NCBI RefSeq assembly: GCF_964031045.1
Contig: NZ_OZ034994.1
Coordinates: 1,116,001 to 1,180,000, forward strand
Reading direction: 5' to 3'
From: Spiroplasma endosymbiont of Aspidapion aeneum
GTDB taxonomy: Bacteria > Bacillota_I > Bacilli_A > Mycoplasmatales > Mycoplasmataceae
DNA: 64,000 nt
Below the pieces are notes generated by a model. The model had not been told where the DNA came from and did not search any database. It was given only the letters and a program-made list of their open reading frames with translations. This document shows, piece after piece, positions 1,080 to 58,088 of the stretch (the first letter of the stretch is position 1; each line of letters begins with the position of its first letter). The translations under genes were made by a program, and so were the position numbers.

Positions 1080-3623
<2,544 letters not shown>

Positions 3624-5195
3624 TTATAATTTCTTATATTCTTCGATTGAACCATACTGTTCCGGTTTATATCCGCTAATTTTCATAATTTCTTTTTTTA
3701 GGACAATAATAATTTCTTTTTTTATTAATTTGTCTAATTCTTCGGTATATGATTTCTCTAAAGTTAATTGCTTTAACAATGACTGGGCAGTGCCATCATT
3801 GTTAAAATGGTTTAATAATGCCTCTTTGAAATTACCCATCAATTCATGTGGCAATCATTTGGTAACCTTTAGTTGAATTGCATACAATATTATAGACATT
3901 GTAATCTGATTTATTGGTGTATATTGTTTTTGCTTTAATAATTCAACAATTCTTTTACCGTTTTCTAAAATAGATTTTGTATTCTCATCCAAATCACTTC
4001 CAAACTTCGAAAAAGCTGCAAGTTCATAATATTGAGCTAATTCTAACTTTAAAGATCCAGATTTTTGTTTAACAGCTCTTATTTGTGCAGTTGAACCAAC
4101 CCTTGAAACCGATAGACCAGTATCTAAAGCCGGTCTTATTCCAGAATTAAATAATGACTCAGTTAAAAATATTTGGCCATCAGTAATTGAAATAACATTG
4201 GTGGGAATATATGCTGAAATATCTCCGGCCTGAGTTTCAACAATTGGTAGAGCGGTAATTGAACCCCCTCCATATTGTTGATTAACTCTAGCCGCTCTTT
4301 CAAGGAGTCTTGAATGAAGATAAAACACATCACCTGGATATGCCTCACGTCCCGGAGACCTTCTTAATAGTAATGATAATTCACGATATGCCACAGCGTG
4401 TTTTGATAAATCATCATAAACAATTAATACATCTTCACCATTTTCCATTCAATATTCCGCTATAGCTACACCAGCATATGGTGAAATATATTGAATTGGT
4501 GCGGGTTCTGAGGAACAAGCACTTACAACAACAGTGTATGACATGCAACCAAGGCTTGTTAAACGTTCTACTATTTGAGCAACTGTTGATTCTTTTTGCC
4601 CAATTGCCACATATACACATTTTACCTTTTTACCTTTTTGATTTATAATTGCATCGATTGCTATAGCGGTTTTTCCTGTTTGTCTATCTCCGATAATCAA
4701 TTCACGTTGACCTTTACCTATTGGAACAATGGCATCTATTGAAAGAATTCCTGTTTCCATTGGTTGATCAACAGATTTTCTAGACATAACACCGGGTGCA
4801 ACTCTTTCAACTGGGTAATGTTTTTTAGATTTGATATCCCCTTTACCATCGATTGGAATACCCATACCATTAACAACTCTGCCTAATAGTTCATCACCAA
4901 CTGCAACCTGTATAACCTGTCCAGTTCTTTTTACAGGATCTCCTTGCTTTATATCCTTTGAATCACCTAAAACAGCAATACCAACAGAACCCAATTCTAG
5001 GTTCATAACAATACCATAAATATCATTTGAGAATAGGACAAGTTCATTCATAACCACTTTATCCATTCCAAAAACAACAGCAACTCCATCACCAACGGTT
5101 CCTACAGTTCCTTGTTCAGATTGTATTATTTTACTGCCATATTGCTCTATATTCTTTTTGATCACTTCTGCAATTTCAGAAATTTTTATTGCCAT
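3624..5195 (-). CDS. atpA: F1Fo ATP synthase subunit alpha
   Basis: Regulatory alpha subunit of F1, 523 residues. The P-loop 'GDRQTGKT' lies near residues 169-176, and '[20 protein letters not shown]' is the highly conserved alpha segment. Two TGA codons, near 4447 and 3853, encode Trp ('AEYWMENGEDV' and 'VTKWLPHEL'). The ATG at 5195 has AGGGG seven to eight bases upstream. The gene follows atpH by 13 bp and touches atpG. Confidence 0.98.
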
Positions 5196-54247: not shown

Positions 54248-54922
54248 TTAAGATTGTGAAATCTCATCTGATTTAACAAAATTTAGGTCATAAATTTTAT
54301 TAACATAAATAGAATAATTATTTGGTGGGTCATCCTGATCGGTCTCGTGGTTTAATCTATCTATAGAAATATCATAAATATGAAATATACCATTATCAAA
54401 GGTGGGGATATAAAAAGTATGTCAATAAAGATCAATAAGACCATCTCTTGTTAAATTAAGGTCAAGATCACTTAATAAAGTATCTTTCTTATAACCATAA
54501 CGAATTAAAGCGCGTCCAATTGCATCGTGATATGGACAGAAATTATCTTCATCTTCATCTACAATATTAAAAAAATAATTTAGGGCTTTAATATAATCAC
54601 CAATATTATATGAGGAGAATTTTTGTACTTTTTGTTCCTTAAAAAGATTATTTGAATATTCATAAATATCTCATGAATTAATAATTGTTTTTTCTTCTCC
54701 TTTGGTATTGCCATATGTATTTCCGACAGCTTCACATACATTGTCAAGAGTATACTCTTTTCCGTGTAAATTAAGGTCTAATTTTTCATTTTCATATGAT
54801 ATACTCTTTTTGTTTTGATCAATTAATGATCTTTTTGCAACCTCCATCCCTATTCAAATACCACCTCCAAGTACAAAACCAAATGTGACAATTGATATAA
54901 GTATTCAGATGTGCTTATCCAT
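54248..54922 (-). CDS. Membrane-anchored hypothetical protein
   Basis: 224 residues with four TGA-Trp codons. One N-terminal hydrophobic segment (about 5-26, 'IWILISIVTFGFVLGGGIWI') anchors a soluble domain that is acidic and rich in Tyr, Asn and Asp. No Cys at a lipobox. The ATG at 54922 has AAAGGAAT upstream. It is the last gene of the cluster, 10 bp after ispD. I recognise no family, and two Cys residues in the soluble part show no pattern. Confidence 0.75.
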
Positions 54923-54932
54923 ATATTCCTTT

Positions 54933-55574
54933 CTATTTTAAATCTTTGGGAAAGGTTAATTTTAAGTTATCTTTTTCACCTTCTATTAAACAAATTTTGC
55001 TAGATGAATAATATTTTGTATATAGTTCTAATTCATCTTGCCAGTCAAACATTTTTTGAATATCTATTATTTTTCTAAAAACACTAACATTTATAAGTTG
55101 GGGTGTTTGAGTGATAAAATAATTATCTCTATTTATTGTTGAAATAGTATTATTATTTATCATTTTCAAACTATCACTAATTTTTAAATGTGGCACCACT
55201 ATATCTCATATTGAAGAAGTTTTTTTCAGTAATCTAATAATTAAATCATCTGTAAAAAATGGTCGCGCAGCGTCGTGAATGAGCACAAAATCTGTATTGC
55301 TCATTTTAATTCCATTTGCCACAGACTCTCCTCTAGTTTTACCTCCAAGACAAAAAATAAGGCGTTTATCTTTTAACCTCTCCGCGTGAATTAAATTTAT
55401 ATTTTCTTTTGAGCATACTAAAATAATTTCATGTATGCATTTAAAATTTAAAAACTTTTTGATAACAGTCTCTAAAACTGTTAGGTTATTATCGAGTTTG
55501 ACCAGTAATTTATTTTTTGTAAATCTAGTGGCCATTCCCGCTGCAACAACTATTACTCCTATACTATTTTCCAT
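54933..55574 (-). CDS. ispD: 2-C-methyl-D-erythritol 4-phosphate cytidylyltransferase
   Basis: MEP-pathway enzyme joining CTP to methylerythritol phosphate, 213 residues (typical 220-235). The nucleotide-binding N-terminus 'VIVVAAGMATRFTKNK' and 'VLIHDAARPFFTDD' (metal/product site) are clear, as is 'GGKTRGESVANGI'. The C-terminal 'TQTPQLINVSVF' corresponds to the TPQ motif. The start ATG at 55574 is two bases after the AsnA-like gene's stop; a TTG at 55607 in frame is less likely. One TGA encodes Trp. Confidence 0.9.
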
Positions 55575-55576
55575 AA

Positions 55577-56584
55577 TTAAAAAATATCCACATTGTTTTT
55601 TTTGCAAAAATCAGTAAATTTTTTTGATCAAACTGAATAATGAACTTCAGCAATATGTTGCTTTTCACAGATTAACATCAAAAATCTATTAACATCAAAT
55701 CCAATGGAAATTGTAAGTGGTAACAAATTAGACTTTATTAAATAATTATATTCTGTGCTACTCTTTCAATTTTCCTTTAGCATCCTATTTTGTTCTTTCA
55801 GTTTTTCTGTCATAACTTGATAAGAGGAATAGGCGATGTCTACGGATTTCTCAATTGCCCAATTATAAACATACAATGTAGAATAGGATTCAAAATCAAA
55901 TATATCTTCCGAAAATATTTGTGATCCATATTTACTGTTTATAAGTGGTACTATATGATTATACACTACAAAGTTACCATTTTCTCTACCAAAAAGGTTA
56001 ATTCTTTCCTGAAATGTTGCAAGTGGGTACATTATTTTTAATTTTCTATGCGAAATAAAAATTAATTGCTGCGATAGATGGTTATTTTGAAGTTCATTAT
56101 AATCATTTGAAAGTTTCATATCTATTTCATATAAAACAGAATAAAGCATTGTTAGAGTATCTAAATTTTTATCTTTTTCATATTTATCGGCAAATAATTC
56201 AATTCCTATTTCATCATAAACAACACTTGTAATATTATCAACTTCAACGTCACGTCGGATTGATTTAGAGTTAGTTAAAATTCCTTTGTTAACTTCATTA
56301 AACCCACCTTTCATAATAGATTCTCGACGTCATTTGTTATCTCTTTGCAAAACTTCGCCAAATATCTTCAGGCTCGGGATATCAAAATCAATAGGCCGGT
56401 AGCTATTATTAAAGTCGTCATTAAGTCATTTATTTTTTTCAGTAATCAATGGAGAGTGTATAAACTTAAGATCTCATTTATTCTTCAGCAAAACAAAAAT
56501 TTCGCTATAAAACTTATCAATTAAATCATAGGTTTCTGCTAACGATAATTTTGATACATAACCAAGTTCAATTCCGTATTTCAT
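55577..56584 (-). CDS. AsnA (aspartate-ammonia ligase) homologue with altered active site
   Basis: 335 residues, the same length as E. coli AsnA (330). Family resemblance runs end to end: 'FIHSPLITE', 'KWRRESIMKGGFNEVNKGI' (84-102), 'TNSKSIRRDVEVDNI' (103-117), and near the end 'LPLTISIGFDVNRFLMLI' and 'QHIAEVHYSVW'. AsnA has GGGIGQSR where this protein has SIGFDVNR, and RAPDYDDW where it has 'SEDIFDFESY'. Key ATP/aspartate-binding residues are therefore replaced. It sits between lysS and ispD, with the ATG at 56584 and GAGGATAG upstream. It may be a catalytically altered or non-enzymatic paralogue, also recalling class II synthetase cores. Confidence 0.65.
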
Positions 56585-56588
56585 ATTT

Positions 56589-58088
<1,500 letters not shown>

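Follow-up and report, generated by a model that had tools for sequence, protein, structure and literature searches.

What does a complete asparagine synthetase A (AsnA) homologue do once the residues of its ATP and substrate sites have been replaced? The question is raised by a gene in a Spiroplasma endosymbiont of Aspidapion aeneum, situated in the 64,000-nucleotide stretch of DNA analysed here (the window). A preliminary description had located this gene between lysS and ispD without giving a strand; the location is correct, and the gene lies on the minus strand (Table 1). Mycoplasma-type bacteria have the smallest and best-studied translation machineries. We coined the name AsnAL for the lysS-linked AsnA-like proteins to which the product belongs, and we examine below their fold, distribution, active site, selection and possible function.

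AsnAL is an AsnA homologue encoded behind lysS

The AsnAL open reading frame comprises 335 codons, with UGA read as tryptophan at five of them. A 4-nt spacer separates the lysS stop codon (TAG, 56589-56591) from the AsnAL ATG (56582-56584), and a ribosome-binding-like site lies within the final lysS codons, an arrangement that suggests translational coupling of the two genes. On the other side, only 2 nt lie between the AsnAL stop codon (TAA) and the ispD ATG (55572-55574). The surroundings are of translation type, with lysS, dus, rpsF and ssb. Between ispD and rpsF, the minus strand at 54248-54922 encodes a 224-aa protein that has no Pfam match and seems to carry a membrane segment at its N-terminus; in the other neighbourhoods of the family that were compared, no open reading frame of at least 100 aa occupies this site.

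Table 1. Positions of AsnAL, its neighbours and its sequence features in the window
Feature	Coordinates	Strand	Remarks
AsnAL, AsnA-like pseudo-synthetase gene	55577..56584	-	335 aa, code 4 (ORF, Pfam, Foldseek)
lysS (LysRS, 499 aa)	56589..58088	-	Adjacency to AsnAL conserved
AGAGGA, ribosome-binding-like site for AsnAL, within final lysS codons	56592..56597	-	Direct sequence reading
ispD	54933..55574	-	Neighbour in operon; not beside AsnAL in several genomes
SIGFDVNR, residues 293-300	55685..55708	-	Replaces GGGIGQSR (E. coli 292-299; ATP-site motif, motif 3)
FSEDIFDF, residues 224-231	55892..55915	-	Replaces RAPDYDDW (E. coli 214-221); D217 kept, D219 lost
E125-I-G127	56204..56212	-	Stands where AsnA has Q116-W-D118; all 40 family orthologues have E and G
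RPIDFD, residues 63-68	56381..56398	-	R63, F67 and D68 each in at least 84/85 AsnAL
R111-D112, motif-2 region	56249..56254	-	R111 in 85/85, D112 in 83/85 AsnAL

AsnA (PF03590) is the sole Pfam domain of the product (E = 1.8e-23). In a phmmer search of the PDB, AsnAL matched 9v83 (6.8e-21) and 11as (5.1e-6) over nearly its full length, and solved AsnA structures were the only credible sequence matches. The NCBIfam asnA equivalog (TIGR00669) aligned with residues 45-324 but, at 49.1 bits, missed its cut-off of 292.8 bits. An AlphaFold model based on 17 sequences (mean pLDDT 87.9) was matched by Foldseek to the AsnAs of T. brucei (4lns) and E. coli (11as_A, TM 0.86), followed by archaeal AsnA (TM 0.69), AspRS, AsnRS and LysRS. 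The whole-length alignment with AsnA claimed in the preliminary description was thus confirmed by the sequence searches, and the AsnA fold was recovered in the model. That AsnAL is a full-length AsnA homologue with a complete class II fold is well supported by sequence and predicted structure.

AsnAL forms a single clade linked to lysS

While a single-protein query returned no match among the genome contigs, an alignment query succeeded. A Pfam AsnA search of the order gave two score classes: many Mycoplasma-type genomes contain canonical AsnAs (E below ~1e-75 for complete sequences), and others gave weak matches. As judged by profile searches and by reading the loci, many of these weaker hits represent AsnA-like proteins encoded directly after lysS in families f3, f8, f11 and f1. 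In the window's family, AsnAL is present in 42 of 60 genomes as a single gene each, the two matches in G025 being pieces of one broken gene. Intact family orthologues number 40, all of them with an altered site, and the AsnAL clade holds 45 more divergent relatives beyond this family, extending it outside Spiroplasma.

In a PMSF tree, all 57 AsnAL proteins tested grouped as a single clade inside the Bacilli AsnA sequences (SH-aLRT 100, stem 0.68); the tree has long branches, so that the order within AsnAL is uncertain. The common position after lysS lends independent support to a single origin. No AsnAL was found outside the order among the loci read, a non-exhaustive set from 395 genomes spanning the whole class; the canonical motif was seen there except in some fragments and in L278, which has neither the canonical AsnA nor the AsnAL motif.

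AsnAL directly follows lysS in 19/19 window-family genomes with a full neighbourhood and in 44/46 other genomes, and its start mostly overlaps the lysS stop codon or falls no more than 20 nt after it. The unlinked exceptions are G251 (L203) and G068 (L206, ~13 kb from lysS). The other genes flanking lysS and AsnAL fall into 28 clusters over 42 loci; the lysS linkage has been kept across the order though most other neighbours differ, a feature that had escaped the preliminary description. This linkage could in part be an inherited operon.

A functional tie between AsnAL and ispD was considered and dismissed, as AsnAL is kept without an adjacent ispD in L106-L108, in f11 and in much of f3; in the genera of L106, L107 and L108, ispD is missing from between AsnAL and rpsF. 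The genomes examined in f7 have other genes after lysS and lack AsnAL there, except that G251 carries it elsewhere. In many f7 genomes (L241, L248, L250, L251, L252, L253) the place downstream of lysS that AsnAL occupies in other families is taken by a HAD-type hydrolase, recognized by its DxDGT motif on reading the sequence.

The AsnA active site is replaced throughout the clade

The GGGIG cluster builds the ATP cavity of AsnA (PMC2865477), and the β-carboxylate of the substrate is expected to be anchored by an Asp-Gln pair corresponding to D219-Q116 (PMC3532385). Alignment with E. coli AsnA (L079), which serves as the reference for active-site numbering, reproduced both changes previously noted, the replacement of GGGIGQSR by SIGFDVNR and the altered RAPDYDDW region, and revealed further altered catalytic positions that had been missed (K77R, Q116E, D118G, D235, E248 and S251Y). 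The altered site is common to the entire AsnAL clade, with GGGIGQSR found in 0/85 AsnAL as opposed to 47/47 canonical AsnAs. Among the 40 intact family orthologues, K77 is replaced by Arg, Q116 by Glu and D118 by Gly in every protein and S251 by Tyr in 39. None of them retains D219 or D235, E248 has been substituted in 38, and R299 persists in only 23.

We compared the 85 AsnAL proteins with 66 canonical AsnAs, in which 61 columns are at least 97% conserved. Nearly all of the catalytic columns among these have been given up: no AsnAL protein retains Q116, D235, K77, G296 or Q297, and retention is low at D118 (2%), D219 (13%), E248 (16%), R100 (21%) and R299 (33%). The position of the ATP-site residue R100 corresponds to R110 in the window's AsnAL and differs among relatives. 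Judged by sequence, loss of AsnA function in AsnAL is well supported.

Evolution has often turned class II cores into enzymes, such as AsnA and PoxA, and the same fold might have taken on a new substrate or adenylation mode, an option favoured in part by R300, the R299 equivalent, which is an arginine in 23 of the 40 family orthologues, and by the invariant arginine R111 at motif 2. However, the R299 equivalent is Q, K or A in the remaining 17 of the 40 family members and mostly N elsewhere, and D235, G296, Q297 and, largely, E248 are gone. As the ATP-site residues R100 and R299 and most substrate residues vary among members, the new substrate proposed in the preliminary description is less likely, and we regard a neo-functionalised enzyme as quite improbable.

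Members of the window's family share a coherently conserved pocket (E125, G127, R86, Y252), a pattern that is also compatible with AsnAL binding a ligand or acting as an enzyme. AsnAL could, for instance, be a small-molecule sensor, whose remodelled pocket still recognizes an amino acid or a nucleotide; in the manner of an allosteric subunit such as HisZ, it would then regulate another enzyme or the expression of lysS, with no need of a stable complex with LysRS. The fold appears intact in the model, the family keeps D46, and its substitutions at K77, Q116, D118 and S251 are fixed or nearly so, as would be expected of a specific new pocket; yet outside the family D46, K77, Q116 and D118 all vary among AsnAL proteins, leaving no pocket conserved across the clade. 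We consider such a sensor unlikely.

Constraint has instead moved to other positions. R63 is present in 99% of AsnAL and 20% of the canonical AsnAs, D68 in 100% and 15%, R111 in 100% and 35%, and D112 in 98% and 55%, while F67, L306, K308 and E313 are conserved in both groups alike. Given their occurrence in some canonical AsnAs, R63 and D68 mark a shift of constraint rather than a new motif. Likewise, R-x-I-x-F-D had to be abandoned as a signature unique to AsnAL: it is absent from the 47 canonical AsnAs, yet RPVxFDI occurs in four other Bacilli loci with canonical AsnA. On sequence grounds, the constraint pattern would be unexpected from random decay and is what a new non-catalytic function would be expected to give.

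One such function could be an accessory role on tRNA or DNA. The mitochondrial polymerase gamma accessory subunit is a dead class II core that acts on nucleic acid, and AsnAL combines two near-invariant arginines with a translation-type neighbourhood. The predicted pI of ~5-9, in contrast, reveals no consistent basic trend, and the gene with which AsnAL stays linked is lysS, whereas ssb and rpsF both drop away in f3. Nucleic-acid binding by AsnAL thus appears very improbable.

AsnAL is under selection, though dispensable

The preliminary description had allowed that orthologues might carry GGGIGQSR and that the present copy might simply be decaying. The absence of this motif from all 85 relatives and dN/dS values of ~0.05-0.16 for most close AsnAL pairs reject this idea (the nearly identical pairs L030-L093 and L094-L095 are uninformative for dN/dS), and together with the 40 intact orthologues the dN/dS values rule out decay of the window's copy. 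More broadly, AsnAL could be a decaying AsnA, or a non-functional remnant held in place by operon inertia, and both the fast sequence divergence between families and the true pseudogenes in G024 and G025 might be read in this way. Apart from the selection test, which already contradicts decay, the single clade and the near-invariance of four AsnA-variable positions in AsnAL speak against it, and we give this explanation scarcely any credence.

The two pseudogenes, L101 (G025, 3178-4190) and L102 (G024, 2974-3216), are broken AsnAL remnants directly behind lysS and show that two genomes of the same genus lost the gene recently. In addition, five genera of the window's family have no AsnAL. AsnAL is dispensable, having been lost in several lineages.

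AsnAL coexists with canonical AsnA

Twelve f3 genomes encode both AsnAL and an AsnA with GGGIGQSR, and G151 probably does so as well; this coexistence identifies AsnAL and AsnA as paralogues. In G146, an AsnA gene (C7, 11434-12110) has several internal stops and matches overlapping in two frames, and is apparently a pseudogene.

In the window's genome, a search for a second, canonical asnA, which the preliminary description had recommended, turned up no further AsnA-type gene; AsnB was also looked for and not found. Three class IIb synthetase genes are present, with lengths fitting AspRS, LysRS and AsnRS. AsnAL might still make asparagine with a divergent site, since the genome has no other asnA and no asnB, and a gene matching AsnRS in length and family implies a need for asparagine. 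Against this stand the replacement of most key residues of the 66 canonical AsnAs, the presence of canonical AsnA alongside AsnAL in the twelve genomes, and the existence of family relatives without any AsnA-type gene, for which free asparagine is presumably importable. Residual asparagine synthesis by AsnAL therefore seems highly improbable.

AsnAL as a candidate partner of LysRS

Fold, catalytic loss, single clade, selection, lysS linkage, coexistence with AsnA, moved constraint and the precedents of SLIMP and HisZ (see below) together lead us to suggest, with a probability of roughly one half, that AsnAL is an AsnA-derived, catalytically retired class II core that assists or regulates LysRS as its partner, the partnership being suggested by gene linkage. 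In an ancestor of Mycoplasmatales, a copy of AsnA would have come to lie behind lysS and, as sequence and model support well, would have lost ATP/aspartate catalysis while retaining the class II fold. Encoded immediately after LysRS, probably in the same operon, AsnAL may be made in step with it, and most likely works as a protein. It might form a hetero-complex with LysRS, or control its activity, stability or tRNA-Lys handling; R63, F67 and D68, together with R111-D112 and the C-terminal K308 and E313, are the putative working site. A stricter version, in which AsnAL is a dedicated non-catalytic LysRS subunit, forming a complex with it across Mycoplasmatales as a bacterial equivalent of SLIMP that arose from another synthetase family, is possible, but we propose it only tentatively.

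Several observations weigh against a LysRS partnership, namely the positions of AsnAL away from lysS in G251 and G068, its repeated loss, and the lack of a clear signature among LysRS residues tracking AsnAL presence (the best column, M281, is weak and is not used as support). If the LysRS-partner reading is true, AsnAL would represent a new type of aminoacyl-tRNA synthetase partner. Database entries presumably label AsnAL asparagine synthetase A or hypothetical; if it is mislabelled as asparagine synthetase, asparagine prototrophy would be mis-stated for many genomes.

Comparison with known systems

In the open-access literature, we found no account of an AsnA-like protein that partners lysS, and a term search of the published minimal mollicute translation apparatus (PMC4014445) yielded no AsnAL-type protein. 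That work reports no PoxA homologues in mollicutes. PoxA/EpmA (GenX) resembles AsnAL as a stand-alone class II core that has no anticodon domain and is tied in function to the LysRS branch. However, PoxA is LysRS-derived, has motifs 2 and 3 intact and is an active, adenylate-forming enzyme that modifies EF-P, whereas AsnAL is AsnA-derived and conserves no ATP site, the motif 3 arginine and the motif 2 R100 position both varying; the kinship to PoxA suggested earlier is thus disfavoured. Archaeal AS-AR (Pyrococcus AsnA) likewise folds as a class II-like asparagine synthetase (TM 0.69 to the AsnAL model), but has its own origin from AspRS/AsnRS and is an active enzyme. Bacterial AsnA (E. coli 11as, 12as) has the same class II fold, AsnAL having derived from within Bacilli AsnA; it differs from AsnAL, which lacks the ATP/aspartate site residues, scores below the equivalog cut-off, coexists with true AsnA and is linked to lysS.

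HisZ, a HisRS paralogue, has a class II core devoid of adenylation activity and regulates HisG (PMC9437257); AsnAL, too, has a class II core, in which no catalytic site is conserved, and is under selection. The idea of a HisZ-like regulatory paralogue holds with respect to the fold, the lost site, selection, the spread over several families and the real AsnA in twelve genomes; it fails with respect to derivation, which is from AsnA rather than HisRS, and to the hisG link, the neighbours being lysS, ispD and rpsF and the proposed partner LysRS. SLIMP, a dead class II synthetase-like protein that forms a heterodimer with active SerRS (PMC9437257), offers a precedent for the partnering of an active synthetase, as we propose for AsnAL, but SLIMP and SerRS are paralogues of each other, whereas AsnAL comes from AsnA. 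AsnAL is thus a previously undescribed family: synthetase-like pseudoenzymes as such are known, while the AsnA parentage and the proposed LysRS partner are new.
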